Shown: one piece after another, positions 4,084 through 30,825 of the stretch
Numbering within the stretch: the first letter of the stretch is position 1
How the letters are laid out: every line of letters begins with the position of its first letter
Assembly: GCA_936942565.1 (NCBI GenBank)
Contig: CAKZJK010000096.1
Coordinates: forward strand, 1 to 33,244
Length of the DNA stretch: 33,244 nt
Direction of reading: 5' to 3'
Source of the DNA: an uncultured Caulobacter sp.
Lineage (GTDB): Bacteria > Pseudomonadota > Alphaproteobacteria > Caulobacterales > Caulobacteraceae
The notes under the pieces: generated by a model
Told to the model about the DNA's origin: nothing
What the model saw: only the letters and a program-made list of their open reading frames with translations
The model's database searches: none
Made by a program: the position numbers and the translations under genes

Positions 4084-5111
4084 GAGGGTTCTTCGACGGC
4101 CAGGGCCAGGCGCCGGCGATCCCAGGCGGGCGCGACCGACAGCAGCACCACGGCGGCGATCATCAGGACGGCGCCGGCGAATTCGGTGGCGGTGGGCATG
4201 GGCAGGCCCCAGCCCAGGGCGAGGATGATCGATGCGGCGATCCCGGCCACGATGCTGGCCGAGCGCTCCATCGGCACGCAGTATGTGTTCTCGCGCGGGT
4301 CCAGGAGGATGATGGCCGAGAAGACAGACACCACGAACAGCAGCACCGCCAGGACGAGGATTGGCGGGATCTGCGGCGTGCTCCACACCGCGAAGAAGCC
4401 GAAGGCCAATTGCGAGCCCTGAGTCCCGAGACCAAGCATCGGGACCAGAGCCAGAAGGATCACCGACAGCGGGACGGCGACGATCTTCTCCTCGACGAAA
4501 TAGCGCTTCACGTCGTCGGGATCGCCAGATTTCGACACGCGCGTCATCACGGCCAGGCGGCCGAAATAGCCGATCGTGTAGAGCACGATCGTGGCGATCG
4601 CGAGCGGGGGCAGGTGCAGGCCGCCGCGCTGGCGAATGGTCAGGAAGAGGCCGATCGCCACCAGCACCAGCGCCACCCAGCTGTACCAGCCGACCTTGCG
4701 TCTGAACGCCAGGTCCACCAGCGGCGCCAGCAGCAGCACATCGCCACGCATCAACAGCTGGATGAAGGGGATGCTCACCCCCTGGAAGGTCAGGGACATC
4801 GGCACCGTGAACAGCACCAGCGCCGTGCAGATGCCCGAGAGGAACGTCCAGCGCGTGGGAACGGGCAGGGTGAACCCGCCGATTTGGCGCTGATGCGCGG
4901 CGCGCCACCAGCCGGACAGTCCGATGAAGATGAAGGTCATCAGGCCGCTGACCATCAGCGAAGCCGGCAGGATCTCCAGCGCGCTCAGCGGCCTCCCCAA
5001 GGACGCCGCGGGCGTGCTGGCCAACTGCTTGGTGATGACCATGTAGGGGATGTAGGCCAGCATGTAGAGCAGGACGATCCCCAACAGCGGCGCACGGCTT
5101 AGCCATTTCAT
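4080..5111 (-). CDS. EamA/DMT-like integral membrane transporter
   Basis: About 10 hydrophobic helices with internal duplication; start overlaps the stop of the CapA-like gene. Confidence 0.7.
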   Translation of the reverse strand: MKWLSRAPLLGIVLLYMLAYIPYMVITKQLASTPAASLGRPLSALEILPASLMVSGLMTFIFIGLSGWWRAAHQRQIGGFTLPVPTRWTFLSGICTALVLFTVPMSLTFQGVSIPFIQLLMRGDVLLLAPLVDLAFRRKVGWYSWVALVLVAIGLFLTIRQRGGLHLPPLAIATIVLYTIGYFGRLAVMTRVSKSGDPDDVKRYFVEEKIVAVPLSVILLALVPMLGLGTQGSQLAFGFFAVWSTPQIPPILVLAVLLFVVSVFSAIILLDPRENTYCVPMERSASIVAGIAASIILALGWGLPMPTATEFAGAVLMIAAVVLLSVAPAWDRRRLALAVEEPS

Positions 5112-13398: not shown

Positions 13399-13449
13399 TT
13401 GGAGCGGGCGGGGGGAATCGAACCCCCGACATTCAGCTTGGGAAGCTGA
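13399..13449. repeat. attL: 51-bp direct repeat, 3' fragment of tRNA-Gly
   Basis: ttggagcgggcggggggaatcgaacccccgacattcagcttgggaagctga, identical to 30750-30800. Confidence 0.93.
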
Positions 13450-13632: not shown

Positions 13633-14967
13633 ATGCCCAACCTTACCCAAAAGCTCATCGAGAGCCTGAAGGCCACGGACAAGATCCAGAGCCTTCCGGA
13701 CAGCGCGATGAAGGGGCTTGAGCTCTACGTCACCAAGACGGGCGTGAAGACGTTCTCGGTTCGCTACACCCTTCCCGACGGAACACGTCGGCGCATGACG
13801 CTGGGGCGCTGGCCGGTCCTCACCCTGGTGGACGCCAGGGAGATGACTCTCGACATCCTCAATCAGGTAGCCAAGGGCAAGGATCCAGCCGTTGCCAAGA
13901 AGGTTGGCTCGGCCGAGGCGCGGGCCAATCAGGTGAAGACCGTTCGTGACCTCGGTGAGGCTCTGATCCAGGCATCGACGCTCAAGGGCGTGCGTCCTTC
14001 GACGCTCACCTATTGGAGCTGGTTGATGAAGAAGCACATCAACCCGCGCGTTGGAGACCTCCGGACCACCGACCTGACCTCGAAGCTGTTGCGTCCCGTT
14101 TTGCGGGAGATCGGAGCGGACGCCGGGCCGGTCACCTCGAACCGGACGCTCACGGTCCTCAAGCGAATGTACAACTTCGCGGTCGATGAGGAGCTTCTAG
14201 AGGTGAGCCCCATCGCCAAGGTGAAGTTCGCCTTCAACGAAACGAGCCGTGACCGGGTCATCTCGGAAAGCGAACTGGCCGCCATCTGGCGCATCCTCGA
14301 ACTGTCGAAGAACCCATCCCGGAATGGAGACCCTGAGCGGGATGGTCTCGGGGTTTCGGCGGCGATGGCGCTGGCGATCCAGCTTTGCGCCTTCACCTGT
14401 CAGCGCGGAAGCGAGGTGATCGGCATCCGCTGGGGCGAGGTCGATCTTGAGGCGCGGGCGTGGGTGCTTCCAGCGGCGCGGTCGAAATCCAAGAGGGAGA
14501 ACGTGGTGCCGCTGAGTGATAGCGCCCTCGCGGCCATCCGGGATGCCTACAGGCTTGCGGAAGCTCGATATGGGCGTTCGCTTCTCGCTGGTGACGCCTT
14601 GTTTCCGTCGCCGCGTAGCCGTCGATCACCGGCGGAAGCGCAGGCAGGTACGGACATTCCGCCTGTCGAGCGGCTTAGCCTCAATCGCGCCATGGCGAGA
14701 CTGACGCAAGCTGCCGGCGTAACCAATGCGACGGTTCATGACCTGCGCCGGACCGGCGCGACTATGATGGCATCGGAAAAAATCGGCGCGCTTGGCGAGA
14801 TTGTCTCACGAATTCTCAACCACAGTGCGGCTGGGTACGGAGTGACCGGGATCTACAACCGCTACGGTTATATCGCTGAGAAGCGCTCTGCGCTTCAGGC
14901 GTGGTGTAAACTGATTGAGCAATTCGCAGATCTGGATAATGACGAACCGAAATCCCGCCATTCATAA
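13633..14967 (+). CDS. int: Tyrosine recombinase / P4-type integrase
   Basis: DUF4102-like N-terminus (LELYVTKTGVKTFSVRYTLPDGTRRRMTLGRWP); catalytic region QLCAFTCQRGSEVIGIRWGEVD…VHDLRRTGATMM…ILNH…GVTGIYNRYGY; adjacent to attL. Confidence 0.95.
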   Translation: MPNLTQKLIESLKATDKIQSLPDSAMKGLELYVTKTGVKTFSVRYTLPDGTRRRMTLGRWPVLTLVDAREMTLDILNQVAKGKDPAVAKKVGSAEARANQVKTVRDLGEALIQASTLKGVRPSTLTYWSWLMKKHINPRVGDLRTTDLTSKLLRPVLREIGADAGPVTSNRTLTVLKRMYNFAVDEELLEVSPIAKVKFAFNETSRDRVISESELAAIWRILELSKNPSRNGDPERDGLGVSAAMALAIQLCAFTCQRGSEVIGIRWGEVDLEARAWVLPAARSKSKRENVVPLSDSALAAIRDAYRLAEARYGRSLLAGDALFPSPRSRRSPAEAQAGTDIPPVERLSLNRAMARLTQAAGVTNATVHDLRRTGATMMASEKIGALGEIVSRILNHSAAGYGVTGIYNRYGYIAEKRSALQAWCKLIEQFADLDNDEPKSRHS

Positions 14968-20267: not shown

Positions 20268-20277
20268 CAGGCAAGCC

Positions 20278-21228
20278 ATGTCGATCTTTCACCTAACGGT
20301 GAGGTCGGTCTCTCGCGCCTCGGGCCGCAGCGCAGTCGCCGCTGCGGCCTATCGCGCTGGGGAGCGCTTGACCAACGACCGCGACGGCCGAACGCACGAC
20401 TACACGAACAAGCCGGTCGTGGAGGCCTTCATCCTCGCGCCCCCGGATGCTCCAGAGTGGTCACGCGACCGCGCCCGACTCTGGAACGCCGTGGAGGTGG
20501 CGGAGAAGCGCAAGGACGCCAAGGTCGCCCGCGAATATGAACTGGCGCTTCCCGCCGAGGTGGACGCCGCTGGACGCCGGCGCCTGGCGGAGACTTTCGG
20601 CTGGCGTCTGGTCGAGCGCTATGGCGTCGCGGTTGACGTGGCGATCCACCCGCCCAGCGAGGAGGGCGATCAGCGCAACCACCATGCTCATCTTCTGACG
20701 ACCACCCGGGCTATCGGGCCAACTGGTCTCGGGGCCAAGACCCGCGTGCTCGATGTCTCAAGCACCGCCTCCGTCGAGGTTGAAACGCTCCGGGAAGGCT
20801 GGGCGGATCTGGTCAACCAGGCGCTGGCGCGGGCCAACGTCCATGAGCGCGTCGATCACCGCAGCTTTGAGCGACAGGGTAAGGCGATCGAGCCGACGAT
20901 CAAGCTGGGGCCGATCGTGAGCGCAATAGAGCGGCGGGCGCGGGCGAGGGGAGGGGCTGGCGCTAGTATCCAGTCTGTTACGGAGCGCGGACGGTTCAAC
21001 GCCCTGCTGAAAGAGATGCGCAGTTTGTCGGCCTATATCGAGCGTGGGCGGTCGTTCTTGGAAGCCGAGCGTGGAAGGTTCCTGGCGACAGCGAAGGAGA
21101 TAGTGCAGTCGCCTGTAGCGAAGTTGCGTCGCGCCGTCGGTCAGATCGGCTGGGGTAACGGACGTGAGGGGTTGTCACGGCCAAAGCTGGAAGAGCAACG
21201 AACGAGGGGGAGAGGGCTTGAGCGCTAG
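20278..21228 (+). CDS. mobA: MobA/MobL (MOBQ) relaxase
   Basis: MSIFHLTVRSVSRASGRSAVAAAAYRAGERL…, histidine motif NHHAHLLTTTR. Shorter than typical plasmid MobA (relaxase domain only). Confidence 0.92.
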   Translation: MSIFHLTVRSVSRASGRSAVAAAAYRAGERLTNDRDGRTHDYTNKPVVEAFILAPPDAPEWSRDRARLWNAVEVAEKRKDAKVAREYELALPAEVDAAGRRRLAETFGWRLVERYGVAVDVAIHPPSEEGDQRNHHAHLLTTTRAIGPTGLGAKTRVLDVSSTASVEVETLREGWADLVNQALARANVHERVDHRSFERQGKAIEPTIKLGPIVSAIERRARARGGAGASIQSVTERGRFNALLKEMRSLSAYIERGRSFLEAERGRFLATAKEIVQSPVAKLRRAVGQIGWGNGREGLSRPKLEEQRTRGRGLER

Positions 21229-21466
21229 CGCCAGTGTTCCTGCTGCGAACTGGGCTGGGTTGTCGTCACCCGACACCACCTGAGAAAGGCGGCCTTGCAC
21301 CAGGATGGCGGAGGCTACTCAAACTGACGCCGCTCTGGCTTCTAAGCGTCCCTGACACCTTGTGATTTACGATGTTTCTTGCTCAGGTGGCGCCGAAGGT
21401 GGAGGGGCTACCATTGGGCATTGTGAATAGCGTTCCTAAACGCTCGGCGCGATGCGTCACGCTGCG

Positions 21467-23917
21467 ATGAGCAGTTCGAGCTTCAGCGAACGCGACATCT
21501 GCACCAAGTTCATTACTCCCGCTTTGGTCGCGGCGGGCTGGGACCTGACGGCGCAGATTCGCGAGGAAGTCAGCTTCACCAAGGGCCGCATCATCGTGCG
21601 CGGCAAGCTAGTCACGCGGGGCAAATCCAAGCGCGCCGACTATGTTCTCTACTATAAGCCCAACATTCCCCTGGCCATCATCGAGGCCAAGGACGGTGCG
21701 CACAGCGTTGGCGACGGCATTCAGCAAGCCCTGGACTACGCCGAGACGCTGGACATCCCATACGTCTTCTCCTCCAACGGCAGCGGCTTCGTCTTCCACG
21801 ATCGCACGGGAGCCAGCGCCCAGAAGGAGACGAACCTTCCGCTGGGCACATTCCCATCTCCGACCGACCTGTGGTCTCGCTATGCAGCCTGGAAGGGCTT
21901 CTCGGACGACGCCGAAAAGGTGGTCCTCCAGGACTACTTCGACGATGGCAGCGGCAAGGCCCCTCGCTACTACCAGCTCAACGCCGTCAACGCGGCGATC
22001 GAGGCCATCGCCAACGGACGTGACCGGGTGCTTCTGGTCATGGCGACGGGCACCGGCAAAACCTACACCGCGTTCCAGATCATCTGGCGTCTGTGGAAGG
22101 CCAAGCGGAAGAAGCGGATCCTGTTCCTGGCCGACCGGAACGTCCTGATCGACCAGACGATGGTCAATGACTTCCGGCCGTTCGGTTCGGCGATGGCCAA
22201 GCTCTCCTCGAAGTCGAAGACCATCGAGCGCAACGACGGCACGACGGTGGATCTCGTGACCGCCATTGGCGCCAAGCGGCGGATCGACACCTCCTACGAG
22301 ATCTATCTTGGCCTCTACCAGGCGATCACCGGGCCGGAAGAAGCTCAGAAGCTCTACAAGGAGTTCTCCCCGGACTTCTTCGACCTGATCGTCATCGACG
22401 AATGCCATCGCGGCAGCGCGGCGGAGGACTCAGCCTGGCGCGAGATCCTGAACCATTTCTCGTCGGCGACGCAGATCGGCCTGACCGCTACCCCCAAGGA
22501 GACCGAGTACGCCTCCAACACCGACTATTTCGGCGAGCCGGTCTATTCGTACTCTCTGAAGCAAGGCATCCGCGACGGCTTCCTGGCCCCGTACAAGGTC
22601 ATCAAGTGCCACATCGATCTCGACGTCGAGGGTTACCGGCCAGAGAAGGGAACCGTCGATCGCGACGGCGAGGAAGTCGAAGACCGGATCTACAACGCCA
22701 AGGACTTCGACCGCACCCTGGTGCTGGATCAGCGCACCAAGCTAGTCGCGTCACGGGTCACGGAGTTCCTGAAGGCGAGCGGCGACCGCTTTCAGAAGAC
22801 GATTGTCTTCTGCGTCGACGAGGAACACGCCGCCCGAATGCGCCAGGCCCTGATCAACGAGAACAAGGATCTCGTCGACCAGAACGCCAAGTACGTGATG
22901 CGCATCACCGGCAGCGATCAGGATGGCCAGGCCCAGCTCGGCAACTTTATCGATCCGGAGTCGCGCTATCCGGTGCTCGTCACCACCTCGCGGCTGCTCT
23001 CCACGGGGGTGGACGCTCAGACCTGCCGGCTAATCGTTCTGGACCGTCCGGTCGGCTCAATGACCGAGTTCAAGCAGATCGTGGGCCGGGGTACGCGGGT
23101 CCACGAGGACACCAAGAAGTACTATTTCACCCTGATGGACTTCCGGGGCGCGACCAACCATTTCGCCGACCCCGAGTTCGATGGCGAGCCAGTGCAGATC
23201 TATAAGCCTGGCGACTTCGATCCGATCACGCCTCCAGACGATGTCCCGCCGATCGACGAGGGCGAAGACGGCATTCCACCCGAGCCGGGTCCTGATGAGG
23301 TCGTCATAGACAGGCCTGACATCACGCTCACCGACGGCTTCGCGGAGAAGCAGAAGAAGGTCTATGTCGACGGCGTCGCCGCTAGGGTGATCTCCGAGCG
23401 CATCGAATACCTCGACGCCAGCGGCAAGCTGGTCACCGAAAGCCTGCGGGACTACACCCGCAACACGCTGCGCAAGCACTACGCGTCTCTGGAGGCCTTC
23501 CTGCGGCGCTGGAACGCGACCGATCGCAAGCAGGCCATCATCGACGAACTGGCCGAAGAGGGCCTGTCCCTAGACGTGCTGAGCGACGACGTCGGCAAGG
23601 ATCTCGATCTCTTTGATCTGATCTGCCACGTCGCTTTCGATCGCCCGCCACTGACCCGCCAGGAGCGCGCCGCCAACGTCCGCAAACGCGACGTCTTCAC
23701 CCGCTATGGTGACCAGGCCCGCGCGGTTCTAGAGGCCCTGCTGGCTAAGTATGAGGACGAGGGGCTGCTGAATCTCGACGATCCCCAGGTGCTGCGAATC
23801 TCGCCATTCGACCAGATGGGGACGCCGCTGCAATTGGTTCGGCAGTTTGGATCGCGTGAGAAGTTCGAGAGCGCAGTGCATGAACTCCAAGCCGCGCTCT
23901 ATTCCAACGGTGCCTGA
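21467..23917 (+). CDS. hsdR: Type I restriction endonuclease subunit R
   Basis: PD-(D/E)XK N-terminus (RADYVLYYKPNIPLAIIEAKD), Walker A MATGTGKT, DECHRGS, TATPKET, GRGTR motif. Confidence 0.97.
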   Translation: MSSSSFSERDICTKFITPALVAAGWDLTAQIREEVSFTKGRIIVRGKLVTRGKSKRADYVLYYKPNIPLAIIEAKDGAHSVGDGIQQALDYAETLDIPYVFSSNGSGFVFHDRTGASAQKETNLPLGTFPSPTDLWSRYAAWKGFSDDAEKVVLQDYFDDGSGKAPRYYQLNAVNAAIEAIANGRDRVLLVMATGTGKTYTAFQIIWRLWKAKRKKRILFLADRNVLIDQTMVNDFRPFGSAMAKLSSKSKTIERNDGTTVDLVTAIGAKRRIDTSYEIYLGLYQAITGPEEAQKLYKEFSPDFFDLIVIDECHRGSAAEDSAWREILNHFSSATQIGLTATPKETEYASNTDYFGEPVYSYSLKQGIRDGFLAPYKVIKCHIDLDVEGYRPEKGTVDRDGEEVEDRIYNAKDFDRTLVLDQRTKLVASRVTEFLKASGDRFQKTIVFCVDEEHAARMRQALINENKDLVDQNAKYVMRITGSDQDGQAQLGNFIDPESRYPVLVTTSRLLSTGVDAQTCRLIVLDRPVGSMTEFKQIVGRGTRVHEDTKKYYFTLMDFRGATNHFADPEFDGEPVQIYKPGDFDPITPPDDVPPIDEGEDGIPPEPGPDEVVIDRPDITLTDGFAEKQKKVYVDGVAARVISERIEYLDASGKLVTESLRDYTRNTLRKHYASLEAFLRRWNATDRKQAIIDELAEEGLSLDVLSDDVGKDLDLFDLICHVAFDRPPLTRQERAANVRKRDVFTRYGDQARAVLEALLAKYEDEGLLNLDDPQVLRISPFDQMGTPLQLVRQFGSREKFESAVHELQAALYSNGA

Positions 23918-23919
23918 CA

Positions 23920-24492
23920 ATGTCAGGAATTCAGATTGTCCGCTTCGAAGCGACGGCGGACCAGATGCGCCAGCTTGTCGTCGCCCACCGGGAGAGTTTT
24001 CCGAAGACCGAGCAAATCGAGCTCGAAGCGCTCAGAGCCCTAGAAGCAGGATTGGCCCGCCCCCTGGCGATGGCTTTGATCGAAAGCGTATGCGCTTGGG
24101 GCAACTACGCGGGTATTGCAGGGCGCGTGCGCGTCAGGAACTCAGCAAGCGAAATTTCCGCTCGCCTCAGCGAAGCGATTGAGCGGTCAGACCAAGGACG
24201 CTTTGGCGAAGGCGTGAATTGCATTGCGGAGTTAAGGGGGCTGGGGTTCTCGTTTGCCTCTAAGGTCCTGCGGTTTCTGAGGCCCGATCACGCTGTGGTG
24301 TTGGATAGCGTCATCAGCGAAGGTTTGGGCTTTGCGCGCAACGTCGCTGGTTATGACGCCTTCCGAGCGGAATGTGCGCGAATTGCGGATTTGCTGAACG
24401 CGCCAACCCAGCCTAATCCCGACCCGTCCAACCGAGCCTGGCGTCTTTTCGACGTCGAAATGGCGATCTACGCAAAGTTTCGAGGCCTCTAA
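23920..24492 (+). CDS. HhH-GPD (DNA glycosylase-like) protein embedded in the type I R-M operon
   Basis: IAELRGLGFSFASKVLRFLRPDHAVVLDSVI resembles helix-hairpin-helix plus conserved Asp of HhH-GPD proteins; 2-nt gaps to hsdR and hsdM. Confidence 0.6.
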   Translation: MSGIQIVRFEATADQMRQLVVAHRESFPKTEQIELEALRALEAGLARPLAMALIESVCAWGNYAGIAGRVRVRNSASEISARLSEAIERSDQGRFGEGVNCIAELRGLGFSFASKVLRFLRPDHAVVLDSVISEGLGFARNVAGYDAFRAECARIADLLNAPTQPNPDPSNRAWRLFDVEMAIYAKFRGL

Positions 24493-24494
24493 TC

Positions 24495-25949
24495 GTGTCC
24501 GTCCGTACCCTCGTCAAATCCATCCAGGACATCATGCGCAAGGACGTCGGCGTCGACGGCGACGCCCAGCGCGTGGGTCAGCTTTGCTGGATGTTCTTCC
24601 TCAAGATCATCGACGACCAGGACGAAGAGCTTGGGGTGCTCCGCAGCGACTACAGGTCCCCAATCCCTGATCACCTCCGCTGGTCAGCGTGGGCCGCGGA
24701 CCCGGAGGGTATGACCGGCGAGGCGCTGATCGATTTCATCAACGACACGCTATTTCCCAAGCTCAAGACCCTGCCGCTCAGCGGCAAGCCCGGAGATCGC
24801 GCGCGGGTCGTTCGGGCCGTCTTCGAGGACGCCTACAACTATATGAAGTCTGGGCAGTTGCTGCGCCAGATCATCAACAAGATCAACGAGGTCGACTTCA
24901 ACGATCTGGCTGAGCGCCAGCATTTCGGCGACGTCTATGAGCAGCTTCTCAACGACCTGCAGAACGCCGGCAACGCGGGCGAGTACTATACCCCGCGCGC
25001 CGTCACCGCCTTCATGGTCGATCGCATCGACCCGCGCCCCGGCGAGATCCTGTTCGACCCGGCCTGCGGCACAGGCGGCTTCCTGACCTGCTCGATCCGC
25101 CACATGCGCGAGCGCTATGTGAAGCGGCCAGAGGACGAACAGGCGCTGCAGGCTGGGCTGCGGGCGGTGGAGAAGAAGCCCCTGCCGCACATGCTGGCCA
25201 CCACCAACATGCTGTTGCATGGCGTCGAAGACCCCAGCTTCCTGCGCCACGACAACACACTGGCCCGCCCGCTGATCTCCTGGGGCAAGGACGAGCGCGT
25301 CGATATCGTGCTGACCAACCCGCCGTTCGGCGGCAAGGAAGAGGACGGCATCGAGAACAACTTCCCCACCTTCCGCACCAAGGAGACAGCGGATCTGTTC
25401 CTCGCCCTGATCGTGCGACTTTTGAGCAAGGACGGCCGCGCCGCCGTGGTGCTGCCCGATGGCACTCTGTTCGGCGAGGGTATCAAGACCCGGCTGAAGG
25501 AACACCTGATGGAGGAGTGCAACCTGCACACCATCGTCCGGCTGCCCAACTCGGTGTTCAAGCCCTACGCCTCGATCGGCACCAATCTGTTGTTCTTCGA
25601 GAAGGGCGCGCCGACCAAGGAGACCTGGTTCTTCGAGCACCGCGTGCCGGAAAGCCAGAAGGCCTATTCGATGACCAAGCCGATCCGCCTGGAGCATCTG
25701 CAGCCCTGTATCGACTGGTGGGGCGGCCAGGACCGCGAGGGTCGCGAAGAAGGTCCCCAGGCCTGGCGGGTGACGATCGATGACGTCAAGGCGCGCGGCT
25801 ACAACCTCGACTTCAAGAACCCGCACGCGGTGGCGGACGATCACGGCGACCCGGAGGCGCTTCTGGCCGACCTGGACGCCGCCGAGAGGGATGTCGCGGC
25901 CTTGCGCGACCAGCTGAAGGCGATCCTGGCTGAGGCGCTCGCCCGATGA
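24495..25949 (+). CDS. hsdM: Type I DNA methyltransferase subunit M
   Basis: FDPACGTGGFL SAM-binding motif, LTNPPFGG catalytic motif, HsdM_N-like N-terminus. Confidence 0.98.
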   Translation: MSVRTLVKSIQDIMRKDVGVDGDAQRVGQLCWMFFLKIIDDQDEELGVLRSDYRSPIPDHLRWSAWAADPEGMTGEALIDFINDTLFPKLKTLPLSGKPGDRARVVRAVFEDAYNYMKSGQLLRQIINKINEVDFNDLAERQHFGDVYEQLLNDLQNAGNAGEYYTPRAVTAFMVDRIDPRPGEILFDPACGTGGFLTCSIRHMRERYVKRPEDEQALQAGLRAVEKKPLPHMLATTNMLLHGVEDPSFLRHDNTLARPLISWGKDERVDIVLTNPPFGGKEEDGIENNFPTFRTKETADLFLALIVRLLSKDGRAAVVLPDGTLFGEGIKTRLKEHLMEECNLHTIVRLPNSVFKPYASIGTNLLFFEKGAPTKETWFFEHRVPESQKAYSMTKPIRLEHLQPCIDWWGGQDREGREEGPQAWRVTIDDVKARGYNLDFKNPHAVADDHGDPEALLADLDAAERDVAALRDQLKAILAEALAR

Positions 25950-27259
25950 ACGCTGAGCGCTTGTTGCAGCAGTACGAACGGATTTCTGACGCGCCGGATG
26001 CGATCGCCCGCCTGCGGCGGTTCGTTCTGGATCTTGCTGTTCGTGGCAAGCTCGTGCCGCAGAGCCCCAACGATGAGCCCGCTTCAGAGCTACTGAAACG
26101 CATCGAGAAGGAGAAGGCGCGGCTGTTGAGGGCTGGAGAAATTAGGTGGGATAGGCCACTTCCACCTGTAAGCGGCGCTGACGCAATCATCGCACTACCG
26201 CCCGGGTGGCAGTGGGTACGTTTAGGCCGTTTGGCACAGATGGTCACGAGCGGATCAAGAGATTGGGCAAAGCACTACGCAAGTGAAGGTGCGATCTTTG
26301 TTCGTATGGGCAATCTTTCAAAAGATCACTATCGCCTTCGTCTCGACCATATCCAACGAGTTAAAGCGCCCGAGGACGGCGAAGGGACGCGAACAAGGCT
26401 GGCAGCAGGCGATATTCTTATTTCCATCACCGGCGAGGTGGGGATGCTCGGCCTGATCCCTGAGGGGTTCGGCGAAGCCTACATTAATCAGCATACGGCA
26501 ATGGTACGCCCTATGCCTGAAATGCAGGGCCGATTTCTGCCTGAGTTGTTTCGCTCGCCATTCGCACAGGCACAGTTCAATGAACCGCAAAGAGGCATCA
26601 AGAACAGCTTTCGCCTGACCGATATTACGCAGTTCGTTGTTCCCCTTCCACCGCTGGCCGAGCAGCACCGCATCGTCGCCAAGATTGATGAGTTGATGGA
26701 CCTGTGCGACCGGCTGGAGGCGGCGCGGGAGGCGCGGGAGGCTACGCGCGACCGGCTGGCGGCGGCGAGCCTTGCCCGCCTCGACACGCCCGATCCCGAT
26801 GCCTTCAAAGACGACGGCCGCTTCGCCCTCGAAGCGCTACCCACCCTCACCACGCGCCCCGACCAGATCAAGCGCCTGCGCCAGGCCATCCTCAATCTCG
26901 CTGTGCGCGGAAAGCTCGTAGCTCAGGATACGAATGAAGAACCGGCTGTTGATGGGCTTCGGGCGGTCGAAGAATTGAAGGCTAAGCAGAGCATCAAGAA
27001 GCCCAAGAAGGTCGCGCCAATCGAGGACGCAGACAAATGGTGCGCGTCACCAAAGGGCTGGGTCTGGGCTCGTTGGGATCAAATCACGGACTGGATAACC
27101 TACGGCTTCACGCGTCCAATGGAGCATGTGAAGGAAGGCATTCCCATCGTTACGGGAAAGAACGTCAACGAGGGGCGTATCATCTTTGAAACTGCCAGCT
27201 TGACGCCTCTGCAATCGTTCAACGAACTTACCGAAAGCCGCAACCCGGTGATATTTTGA
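25946..27259 (+). CDS. hsdS: Type I specificity subunit S, N-terminal portion (apparently frameshifted)
   Basis: Two-TRD architecture; first TRD ends PLPPLAEQHRIVAKIDELMDLCDRLE; frame is lost near 27234-27236 and stops at 27259. ATGA overlap with hsdM. Confidence 0.9.
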   Translation: MNAERLLQQYERISDAPDAIARLRRFVLDLAVRGKLVPQSPNDEPASELLKRIEKEKARLLRAGEIRWDRPLPPVSGADAIIALPPGWQWVRLGRLAQMVTSGSRDWAKHYASEGAIFVRMGNLSKDHYRLRLDHIQRVKAPEDGEGTRTRLAAGDILISITGEVGMLGLIPEGFGEAYINQHTAMVRPMPEMQGRFLPELFRSPFAQAQFNEPQRGIKNSFRLTDITQFVVPLPPLAEQHRIVAKIDELMDLCDRLEAAREAREATRDRLAAASLARLDTPDPDAFKDDGRFALEALPTLTTRPDQIKRLRQAILNLAVRGKLVAQDTNEEPAVDGLRAVEELKAKQSIKKPKKVAPIEDADKWCASPKGWVWARWDQITDWITYGFTRPMEHVKEGIPIVTGKNVNEGRIIFETASLTPLQSFNELTESRNPVIF

Positions 27260-27669
27260 TTACGAAGGATGGTTCCATCGGCAGAACTGCAATCGTCGAG
27301 CAAAATCATCTGCCCTTCTGTATCAATCAGAGCGTTGCAGTGATGTGGCTACGATCTTGCCACTTTGATCGGCGCTACCTGAAGCTTGTTCTGGACTCGC
27401 CCCAGACACAGGAGGTTCTGCTTGAGAAGACGGCAGGCGTTGCGATCAAGCACATCTCGATTACAGATCTGGGGAAAATGGTGTTTCCCCTCCCGCCGCT
27501 CGCCGAACAACACCGCATCGTCGCCAAGGTCGATGAACTCATGGCGCTGTGCGACCAGTTAGAGACGAGCCTCACCGCCACCGCCGCCACCCGCCGCCTC
27601 CTGCTTGACGCCTTGCTGGCTGAAGCTCTCGCGCCGGCGGACGCCCGCGAAATGGAGGCGGCGGAGTGA
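27256..27669 (+). CDS. hsdS: Type I specificity subunit S, C-terminal portion (frameshifted remainder)
   Basis: ITKDGSIGRTAIV…PLPPLAEQHRIVAKVDELMALCDQLE; upstream codons in this frame read QPGDIL, the usual TRD continuation. Confidence 0.85.
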   Translation: MITKDGSIGRTAIVEQNHLPFCINQSVAVMWLRSCHFDRRYLKLVLDSPQTQEVLLEKTAGVAIKHISITDLGKMVFPLPPLAEQHRIVAKVDELMALCDQLETSLTATAATRRLLLDALLAEALAPADAREMEAAE

Positions 27670-27818: not shown

Positions 27819-28460
27819 ATGATCCCGCATCGCTTCAACGTCGAGTATCCGCAGCGGTGCCTCGCCCTGTTGGGCGCCATGGAACCCGAAGCACGCAACC
27901 AGGATCTCCTGGCGTCCTTCAGCCTGCTTGCGGCGGCCTCGGTCCTCGTCATTCCCTTTGAGCGCTTGAAGGAAAGTCACCCGTTCGAGCAGGACAGAGG
28001 AACTCGTCTGGCGGCGGCGATCCGTAAGCTCAAGAAACAGAGGTGGTCTGAAGCTTCCTTCTGGAAAGAGCATGGCCTGGGCGAATGGAAATTTTCGCGC
28101 ATCGTGAACGATCCCAACCAAGTTGCGGAATGGACGGACGCGAATGGCCGTCGTTCGTTTTCGCCGGAGGCCAACGACATCGAACGCCGAACGGCTGACG
28201 ATGTCCTGCGCGTCCTGCGTAACGCCTTGGCGCACGGCAACGTCGTCTATCTGGACGAGGCGGGATACGAGAGAGCGGGGGCGCCAGTGCGCTACCTCGC
28301 CTTCCTCTCCCGATACGAAGAGACCAAGGAAGAGCGCGAGAGGGCGGAGACCTATCGGCTCGTGGTGGTCAGCGACAAAGACTTCCTCGCCTTCCTGCGC
28401 CACTGGGCGGGCTGGCTGGCTAGTTTCGCACCCGATAGCGAATTGAACGAGGCCTCGTGA
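27819..28460 (+). CDS. HEPN-like (pEK499_p136-type) protein
   Basis: DDVLRVLRNALAHGNVVYL has the RX4H HEPN signature; helical, about 213 aa. Confidence 0.65.
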   Translation: MIPHRFNVEYPQRCLALLGAMEPEARNQDLLASFSLLAAASVLVIPFERLKESHPFEQDRGTRLAAAIRKLKKQRWSEASFWKEHGLGEWKFSRIVNDPNQVAEWTDANGRRSFSPEANDIERRTADDVLRVLRNALAHGNVVYLDEAGYERAGAPVRYLAFLSRYEETKEERERAETYRLVVVSDKDFLAFLRHWAGWLASFAPDSELNEAS

Positions 28461-29560
28461 TGCCCATTCGTAACGCCATTTGGACCGTCAGCGCACAGCC
28501 ACAGCCGCTTGCGGAAGGTCGCCTCCCCAGCGAACGGGTGCTGGAGGATATGATCGTCGCCGCGCCTCGTATCTTGTCCGACGAGTGGATGCTGATCGGC
28601 CGTCAGGAACGCACCGGCTCGGGTGGGGTCATAGATCTGTTAGCGGTGGCGCCCGACGGCGCGCTGGTGCTGATTGAGCTGAAACGCGAGCGCACGCCTC
28701 GCGAAGTCGTGGCCCAGGCCATCGACTATGCGGTCTGGGTGGAGGGATTGGAGGCGCAAGACATCGCCGCCATCTACGGTCGCTTTGCGCCGGGACACGA
28801 TCTCGCGGCTGATTTCCTCGCCCGCTTTGGCCAGGCGCTGGATGAAGACTCTCTGAATGAAAGCCATCAGATCGTCATCGTCGCGACGTCGCTGGACGAC
28901 AGCAGCGAGCGGATCGTCGCCTATCTGAACAAGCGCGACATTCCCATCAATGTGCTGTGCTTCCAGATCTTTACGATCGGCGACCAGCAGCTGCTCAGCC
29001 GGTCCTGGTTACTCGATCCCGTTCACACCCAGGTTAGCGCGGCCGTCACCCCGACGGGGCGCGGCGCACGTGAGCGAGAGCCCTGGAACGGTGAGTTCTA
29101 CGCATCCTTTGGTCATGGCGTCAGCCGCTCGTGGAACGAGGCTCGCCGCTACGGCTTCATCAGCGCCGGCGGTGGGGCCTGGTACAGCAACACGCTAAAC
29201 CTTCTCAACATCGGTGATCGCGTTTGGGTGAAGGCTCCGGGCTACGGCTTCGTCGGTGTTGCTGAAGTAACCGGGCGCTCGCAGCCCGCCGATGAGTTTA
29301 GGCTGACGACAGAGCAGGGGGATCGCCCCGCGTCCGAGGTCCTGACCGAGGCGACCTATCATCGTGAATTCGGGAACGACCCGGAGCGGATGGAACACTT
29401 TGTCCCGGTGCGATGGCTGTACACGGTGCCGCTGGAGAAAGCGGTCAATGAGATTGGCCTCTTTGGCAATCAGAACACCGTCTGCAAACCGACTACCCCA
29501 AAGTGGCGCTCCACCGTTGATCGCCTCAAGGAACGCTGGCCGGGTGCTATCGTTGGCTGA
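28457..29560 (+). CDS. PD-(D/E)XK nuclease (NucS/DUF91-like) with C-terminal PUA/EVE-like module
   Basis: GGVIDLLAVAPDGALVLIELKRERTPREVVAQAIDYAVWV; C-term IGDRVWVKAPGYGFVGVAEVTGR; GTGATG start overlaps the HEPN stop. Confidence 0.7.
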   Translation: MMPIRNAIWTVSAQPQPLAEGRLPSERVLEDMIVAAPRILSDEWMLIGRQERTGSGGVIDLLAVAPDGALVLIELKRERTPREVVAQAIDYAVWVEGLEAQDIAAIYGRFAPGHDLAADFLARFGQALDEDSLNESHQIVIVATSLDDSSERIVAYLNKRDIPINVLCFQIFTIGDQQLLSRSWLLDPVHTQVSAAVTPTGRGAREREPWNGEFYASFGHGVSRSWNEARRYGFISAGGGAWYSNTLNLLNIGDRVWVKAPGYGFVGVAEVTGRSQPADEFRLTTEQGDRPASEVLTEATYHREFGNDPERMEHFVPVRWLYTVPLEKAVNEIGLFGNQNTVCKPTTPKWRSTVDRLKERWPGAIVG

Positions 29561-29613: not shown

Positions 29614-30510
29614 TCAGGCAGGCGACAACCGCGTATAAGGCAGTAGGCCAAGCTCGGCTGCGTTTTTGAAAGTGTGCTTTCGAAACGATACGAAGCCGGG
29701 TCTCTCATGCCCTGTTCGGCGTGTGGGATCGTAATAGACCGACATGATTGTCTGAAGAAGCCGCTGAAGCGGAATATGCAGCTCCGCTCTGCAATCGACT
29801 GCGACGTACCGCGCTTTATTAGGCGGAGAGTCCTTGCTCCGCACTTTAAAGGCGCAGGTTTGCTCCATCACGGAAACTTCGTTGACCAAGGTGTCGAAGT
29901 CTTGATCTTCGTACGCCGCCTGCAGGCCGGCCAAGATTTCCCGATTGAGGGCCTCGGGATCTTCCTGATCAGCCGAGAAGGCGAATAGCGCTGTGCATGG
30001 AGAACGGCGATCACGCTCTGCACATAGACAAGCGGCGTTTCTGAGGGCGATCAGTTCCTTGCTTAGATCCCGGAGATAGAGAGTCTTCTTCACTGATATA
30101 ATGCCCACTACCCCTTCGGGCGGAACAATGCAGAACTCCTCATATCGCTCGTAAACCGGGTAGGCATCGAAGTCGTAGATAATGATGTCTAACTGGGTGG
30201 AGTGCCGATCTTCATGGGCGAGCACGCGCTCGGTGTTGGAGATGCCGGTCTTCGTTGCGGGGCAGAGGATGAAACCGGAAACCGCCTGAAGATTGCCGGG
30301 CAAGTGCTTATTCAAGAATGTGCGTAGCAGTGACTCGATGAAGCGCCCCTCCTCACCACGGTGCGCTGCGCCCTTAGTCTTAGCGTTTGGGAGCAATGTC
30401 TCGATTACTCGATATCGTTCCTGCAGCGTCCTGGCCTCAATCTCGAAGAAGCTACGGACCCGGTGGCCCTTGCCAGCTTGGGCAATTGGATCATCGGTCT
30501 GGTCTGCCAT
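29614..30510 (-). CDS. DUF6602-like protein (possible PD-(D/E)XK relative)
   Basis: STQLDIIIYDFDAYPVYERYEEFCIVPPEGVVGIISVKKTL; start MADQTDDPIAQ. Confidence 0.65.
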   Translation of the reverse strand: MADQTDDPIAQAGKGHRVRSFFEIEARTLQERYRVIETLLPNAKTKGAAHRGEEGRFIESLLRTFLNKHLPGNLQAVSGFILCPATKTGISNTERVLAHEDRHSTQLDIIIYDFDAYPVYERYEEFCIVPPEGVVGIISVKKTLYLRDLSKELIALRNAACLCAERDRRSPCTALFAFSADQEDPEALNREILAGLQAAYEDQDFDTLVNEVSVMEQTCAFKVRSKDSPPNKARYVAVDCRAELHIPLQRLLQTIMSVYYDPTRRTGHERPGFVSFRKHTFKNAAELGLLPYTRLSPA

Positions 30511-30672
30511 GTTGCCTCTCGCTGCTTTGCTTCTGGCGTTACGCTGACCGAGCAGGTCGCGCAGCCCGCGCAGTCGGTCACTGAATGCCCGCTTCCTAAA
30601 AGGACGCCAAGGTGGACCTACGGCGCGATGGACCGCTGAGTCGCTGAGGGGCGAAAGTTCGAGAGTGTTCTT

Positions 30673-30696
30673 CGGGACAACGACGGGACAACGGCG
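30673..30696. repeat. Tandem CGGGACAACG pair (11-bp period), right-end candidate integrase arm site
   Basis: cgggacaacg-a-cgggacaacg-gcg; 23 of 24 nt match to 13576-13599. Confidence 0.5.
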
Positions 30697-30749
30697 GGGA
30701 AATGGATGCCGCAGAAGCACCAAAAAATCCGCTAAGTCATTGAAAAGCT

Positions 30750-30800
30750 TTGGAGCGGGCGGGGGGAATCGAACCCCCGACATTCAGCTTGGGAAGCTGA
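30750..30800. repeat. attR: 51-bp direct repeat inside tRNA-Gly
   Basis: Identical to 13399-13449. Confidence 0.93.
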
Positions 30801-30825
30801 CGTTCTACCTCTGAACTACGCCCGC
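30751..30825 (-). tRNA. tRNA-Gly (anticodon CCC), encoded CCA end
   Basis: Reverse complement gcgggcgtagttcagaggtagaacgtcagcttcccaagctgaatgtcgggggttcgattccccccgcccgctcca folds as a cloverleaf; anticodon loop TTCCCAA. Confidence 0.97.

Follow-up and report, generated by a model that had tools for sequence, protein, structure and literature searches.

In a 33,244-nucleotide stretch of DNA from an uncultured Caulobacter sp. (the window), a type I restriction operon carries a small gene, here designated X, with hsdR on one side and hsdM on the other. It is interpreted as an exchangeable accessory HhH-GPD glycosylase of a mobile EcoAI-type operon, probably monofunctional and serving in defence beside type I restriction, a reading to which we give slightly less than even confidence. 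Embedded accessory genes of type I operons are already a known kind and have been encountered mainly as PrrC-like RNases and nucleases. The literature searched, the coverage of which leaves out most subscription journals, gave no example of cargo with a glycosylase fold at the hsdR/hsdM junction and no type I system with a glycosylase; the hsd operons with X known here number two, in the window and in an Acetobacteraceae contig (L008). To our knowledge, no HhH-fold defence glycosylase has been described earlier. A base-excision fold as hsd cargo, next to the Brig-type glycosylases of other folds, would mean that defence has recruited another repair superfamily. The hsdR/hsdM junction also presents itself as a place to seek more defence genes.

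Operon and mobile element

X occupies positions 23920-24492 (+), begins with ATG and encodes 190 amino acids. The TGA stop codon of hsdR is followed by 'CA' and the start codon of X, and the TAA of X is followed by 'TC' and the GTG of hsdM, leaving the spacers of 2 nt on either side that a preliminary description of this DNA had given exactly. Co-translation with the hsd genes is plausible from these junctions. The match to PF21790, the presence of relatives on plasmids and in genomes, and the conservation of residues in 13 relatives together identify X as a real gene as opposed to a chance open reading frame.

The host operon is a type I restriction operon of the EcoAI type (type IB-like). 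HsdR (21452..23917, +) belongs to the EcoAI/FtnUII family of type I restriction subunits, scoring 1165 bits against NF046051 (cut-off 550) and matching Pfam ResIII and EcoEI_R_C. HsdM (24495..25949, +) is a type I N6-adenine methyltransferase with Pfam N6_Mtase and HsdM_N domains. HsdS (25946..27669, +) is divided into two open reading frames, 25946-27259 and 27256-27669, with Methylase_S in each piece. The frameshift lies near 27245 (27240-27260), where after a short run of C the HsdS motif GDILITKDGS continues in a different frame, so that hsdS has probably either mutated recently or been misread in sequencing or assembly. A genuine frameshift could impair the activity of the type I system. 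The next gene in the operon encodes a 213-aa protein (27819..28460, +) for which family searches gave no confident match, followed by a candidate NucS-like endonuclease (28457..29560, +; PADLOC PDC-S11, PDLC04916, E 4e-153). A homologue of PDC-S11 with 62-73% identity also follows hsdS in Pseudomonas aeruginosa pPAG5 (L027, 9127-10201), where ZorA lies next to it.

A perfect direct repeat of 51 bp, corresponding to the 3' end of tRNA-Gly(CCC), is present at 13399-13449 and 30750-30800. The right copy lies inside tRNA-Gly(CCC) itself (30751-30825, -) and the left, identical to it, is placed ahead of a tyrosine integrase gene (13633..14967, +; PHROG integrase, E 7e-50) and a MobA/MobL relaxase gene (20275..21228, +; PF03389, E 6e-64). 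Taken together, the attachment-site repeats, integrase and relaxase bound an integrative element of 17.4 kb in tRNA-Gly, which carries the hsd operon and the PDC-S11 candidate. Its right end encodes a DUF6602 protein with weak NucC/PD-DExK similarity in PADLOC (29614-30783, -).

Fold and family

PF21790 ('OGG', putative 8-oxoguanine DNA glycosylase OGG-like protein) was the single credible Pfam match of X, with an E value of 7.9e-6 and a score of 26.2 bits that falls just under the cut-off of 27. The same family was matched by ten of 13 relatives of X (E up to 0.1, best 8e-8), and X is probably a member of it. When a profile of the relatives was compared with the PDB, the best sequence match was 9o02, an 8-oxoguanine glycosylase/AP lyase (E 0.0038), which aligned ungapped across the hairpin and Asp; the same holds for the match to the 8-oxoguanine glycosylase entry 9o00.

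The AlphaFold2 model of X (pLDDT 90.4, pTM 0.86) is almost all helical. In Foldseek comparisons with the PDB, the model was led by SsOgg, EndoIII, MjaOgg, MutY and TmOgg and ranks 1-18 were all HhH-GPD proteins, at values that are weak (E 0.13-1.3 over the top 18, TM 0.3-0.5). A relative from locus L010, folded likewise, gave a best E of 0.03, and all 50 of its listed matches were HhH-GPD glycosylases, nearly all of OGG or MutY type. Each statistic is modest; the independent methods concur, and on predicted structure and sequence profile X is assigned to the HhH-GPD superfamily. The glycosylase-like fold put forward in the preliminary description is thus borne out by the Pfam match, the profile search against the PDB and the AlphaFold2 model, whose comparison with OGG, AlkA and MutY structures by Foldseek had been proposed there as a check. 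Three further HhH-GPD genes above the Pfam cut-off are present in the host genome (a draft of 676 contigs), which argues that X is not a housekeeping copy.

Active-site pattern

The helix-hairpin-helix and Asp segment of X, LRGLGFSFASKVLRFLRPDHAVVLDSVI (residues 105-132; 24232..24315, +), contains G107, G109, S111, K115 and D129 according to alignments A1-A3. Counted from the hairpin GLG, Ser111 is found at +2, Lys115 at +6 and Asp129 at +20. In OGG1, counted likewise, the lyase residue Lys249 is at +2 and Cys253 at +6, while OGG2 has His at +6 (PMC3397491). Lys115 of X is therefore situated one helical turn past the lyase-Lys position, at the position of OGG1 Cys253. An HhH followed by a conserved Asp had been recognised beforehand and is present as described; the remark that the OGG1-type lyase position is not Lys was likewise correct, Ser being found there, and the conserved Lys four residues beyond that Ser had been overlooked.

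Asp129, Trp60-Gly61 and Glu180 were kept in all 13 relatives, and none of these residues formed part of the search pattern. The lyase-Lys position is Ser or Thr in X and its relatives, and was never Lys in L002-L006. The pattern used to scan genomes demanded residues of the S111/K115 type, and part of their invariance in L008-L019 therefore reflects ascertainment. Only the set found without the pattern (L002-L006) counts as evidence for K115, and in that set all five relatives have Lys at +6. Universal invariance of K115 was rejected, since the search pattern itself accounts for part of it, and a borderline PF21790 match (L007) is without this residue.

The human OGG1 double mutant K249C/C253K keeps full glycosylase activity and has lost lyase activity (PMC12499884). 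The natural Ser/Lys arrangement of X mirrors this engineered separation-of-function mutant and leads to a sharp prediction, that X is a glycosylase without lyase activity. Asp129 would activate water for base excision and Lys115, at the Cys253 position, would shape the base pocket. X would then act as a monofunctional enzyme: the base is freed and an abasic site remains, with no efficient cutting of the strand.

The missing lyase Lys could also be taken to mean that X is a non-catalytic regulator or adaptor of HsdM/HsdR, in which the HhH fold serves for binding only. HhH motifs bind DNA non-specifically, and X is tightly coupled between R and M. This explanation is improbable: the type I enzymes of sister operons do without an adaptor of this kind, and the catalytic Asp, the conserved Lys, Trp60-Gly61 and Glu180 are retained in distant relatives, which suggests that the active site is under selection.

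The hsdR/hsdM junction

Sister operons were gathered via HsdM, and the contents of the junction were counted for the 35 loci having both hsdR and hsdM; the HsdM loci L042, L060, L061 and L062 were left out of the count. The junction was empty in 26 (gap of 114 nt or less), held cargo on the same strand in eight and held an insertion sequence with a PIN toxin-antitoxin pair in one. Cargo consisted of X in the window and L008, an FRG protein in L026, a 309-aa protein with an HNH endonuclease in L027, a 176-aa protein of no known family with a GPYAIVNA segment in L035, a 249-aa protein of no known family in L037, an Mrr-type restriction enzyme (PADLOC PDC-S02, a type IV match) in L051 and a SHOCT protein in L059. 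X thus sits in an exchangeable cargo slot of the type I operon. Inside the operon, co-oriented with it, spaced by 2 nt and variable among relatives, X has the features of an hsd-embedded accessory gene.

X was absent from L035, L036, L040, L041 and L026, the HsdR and HsdM of which are as close to those of the window as are those of L008. The slot is empty in L036, L040 and L041, which belong to the subclade with roughly 75-80% identity to the window, and is filled by another gene in L035 and L026. The core type I enzyme evidently manages without X, and the suggestion in the preliminary description that X is a dedicated subunit of this system finds no support in these loci.

L008, the sole other hsd operon found with X, has the same order, hsdR-X-hsdM; there the start of X overlaps hsdR, and 3 nt separate X from hsdM. 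Identity between L008 and the window is 75% for HsdR, 76% for HsdM and only about 34% for X. This greater divergence of X than of its flanking genes would fit either fast evolution or separate acquisition. In a tree of HsdR and HsdM, L008 grouped with L035 (support 76), apart from the window; the grouping of the window with L008 was not rejected by the AU test (p = 0.17), and the claim that X entered the two operons independently was accordingly dropped. A 36-bp tandem duplication (12 aa) is present near the C-terminus of X in L008 (about 4420-4495), just ahead of a conserved IEMAIF segment.

PrrC resides within a type IC operon, the complex of which holds it sequestered until T4 infection sets it free (PMC3874165), and many type I and type III systems bear exchangeable toxin-like genes (PMC3506569). 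These precedents, together with the variability and tight coupling of the slot, would accommodate X as a latent guardian toxin of the PrrC kind, silenced by the type I complex and freed when a phage inhibits or removes restriction-modification, whereupon it would excise bases from the cell's own DNA and abort the infection. We regard this as rather unlikely, since no antitoxin or inhibitory partner of X was identified and its relatives, either solitary or next to a methyltransferase, are accompanied by no type I complex. Nor do we know of any toxin domain with the HhH-GPD fold.

Relatives of X and their neighbourhoods

A genome scan identified 12 relatives of X (best E 6e-30), and relatives on plasmids were found via tblastn. 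The family is rare. Nothing beyond the window itself was found when the X protein was searched against 100 relative and 385 class genomes; PF21790 gave just two weak or distant matches in 399 phylum genomes, and alignment A3 recovered from the phylum genomes only the window and one weak match of 53 residues. No relatives were found in viral contigs and phages, X had no match in a PHROG search, and PADLOC 2.0 returned 0 families at E values up to 1.

The hsdR-X-hsdM order, which the preliminary description had proposed to look for among homologues, was recovered in L008; most relatives lie outside hsd operons, so that this association holds for one locus besides the window. The remaining relatives from the scan are next to a methyltransferase in some cases, by a MutY-like gene in one, and otherwise alone. 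At five Pseudomonas loci the X-like gene is located 9 nt downstream of a DNA methyltransferase with an SPPY motif (L004, 5525-7477; L005, 5399-7357; L009, 7276-9357; L016/L017, 7711-9699); the methyltransferase of L005, the one scanned, has an Mrr_N domain. The SPPY methyltransferase and the OGG-like gene possibly form a two-gene unit of modification and base excision. In L013 (7838-9459) the OGG-like gene is preceded on the same strand, at a distance of 143 nt, by a MutY-like HhH-GPD gene.

Solitary relatives in many genomes, the MutY-like neighbour in L013 and the finding of 8-oxoguanine glycosylases as the nearest solved structures would also be expected of a repair or protection factor of the element or its host, which removes oxidised or otherwise damaged bases, perhaps at restriction ends, and reached the hsd operon by chance insertion. 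That explanation appears unlikely, given that two operons hold X in the same position though the copies are very divergent, that the identifiable genes of the slot are nucleases, FRG/SHOCT or unknown proteins and not repair genes, and that the host is already equipped with three HhH-GPD glycosylases.

The family is twice tied to DNA methyltransferases, to hsdM here and to the SPPY methyltransferase in Pseudomonas, and restriction glycosylases are already known (PMC10273834). X might accordingly be a base-excision restriction effector similar to R.PabI, guided by the methylation of the operon and excising unmethylated target bases. Several features make this very improbable: the operon has a nuclease of its own in HsdR, which is of intact length, X is without a sequence-recognition domain, the fold of R.PabI is unrelated, and sister operons do without X.

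Proposed role

The favoured explanation, that X is an accessory glycosylase acting beside type I restriction, draws its defence component from gene context. On invading DNA poorly handled by the type I enzyme, X would excise a base that is modified or unusual, and would thereby serve as a type IV-like complement to type I restriction. The Mrr-type enzyme in the slot of L051 suggests that genes placed here can provide a means of attacking modified DNA beyond the reach of type I restriction. In phage DNA, abasic sites made in the absence of a lyase are lethal only with another nuclease or a replication block. More narrowly, X could be a modification-dependent partner of the type I system, type IV-like in its action: an HhH-GPD glycosylase whose pocket lysine has been relocated and which makes abasic sites in modified phage DNA left uncut by HsdR. 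This version is doubtful; if true, it would represent a new class of hsd cargo.

Comparison with known systems

PF21790 is the best family match of X and shares the HhH-Asp core, although X scores just below the curated cut-off; the Pfam description line gives a name that is merely 'putative' and states no hsd link. The OGG2 enzymes MjaOgg, SsOgg and TmOgg are the nearest solved structures and resemble X in their small size, HhH-GPD core, lack of the OGG1 A-domain and G-x-G...A-S-x3-L-R...D pattern. They differ in having the catalytic Lys two residues past the GxG hairpin, where X has Ser111 and its relatives Ser or Thr, and in having His at the Cys253 position, where X has Lys. In OGG2 a strictly conserved C-terminal Lys senses 8-oxoG (PMC3397491). 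This sensor is absent from X, the family having C-termini such as AKFRGL and FEKLRS with no conserved terminal Lys, and 8-oxoG is therefore no safe guess as substrate. OGG1 possesses an N-terminal A-domain and Lys249, unlike X, which at 190 aa consists of the helical core only and has Ser at that position.

MutY, the chemistry of which is monofunctional, agrees with X in having Ser in place of the catalytic Lys and a spacing of 18 from Ser to Asp. It differs by its Fe-S cluster cysteines, the C-x6-C-x2-C-x5-C arrangement being absent from X, by a C-terminal MutT-like domain that X is without, and by the lack of a counterpart to Lys115. Judged on these sequence features, X is a member of none of OGG1, OGG2 or MutY.

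In proposed function X resembles the antiphage glycosylases Brig1 and Brig3, which excise modified phage bases and leave abasic sites. In the accessible portions of the respective reports, Brig1 is placed in the uracil-DNA-glycosylase superfamily (PMC11078745) and the core of Brig3 is said to resemble AAG (PMC13160076); as described there, and unlike X, neither is an HhH-GPD protein or is embedded in an hsd operon. In the R.PabI family (HALFPIPE), base excision is likewise tied to a DNA methyltransferase, but the fold is unrelated and the enzyme belongs to a stand-alone type II pair that acts on the unmethylated recognition sequence (PMC10273834). The model of X, almost all helical and nearest to HhH-GPD folds, has neither a UDG/AAG-like nor a HALFPIPE fold. 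X may work like Brig1, Brig3 or R.PabI, yet is a member of none of these groups. With PrrC of EcoprrI and further accessory genes that are exchanged among type I systems it shares an operon-embedded position that varies between relatives; PrrC, however, is a tRNA anticodon nuclease of a type IC operon, whereas X has a glycosylase fold and separates hsdR from hsdM in an operon of the EcoAI type.
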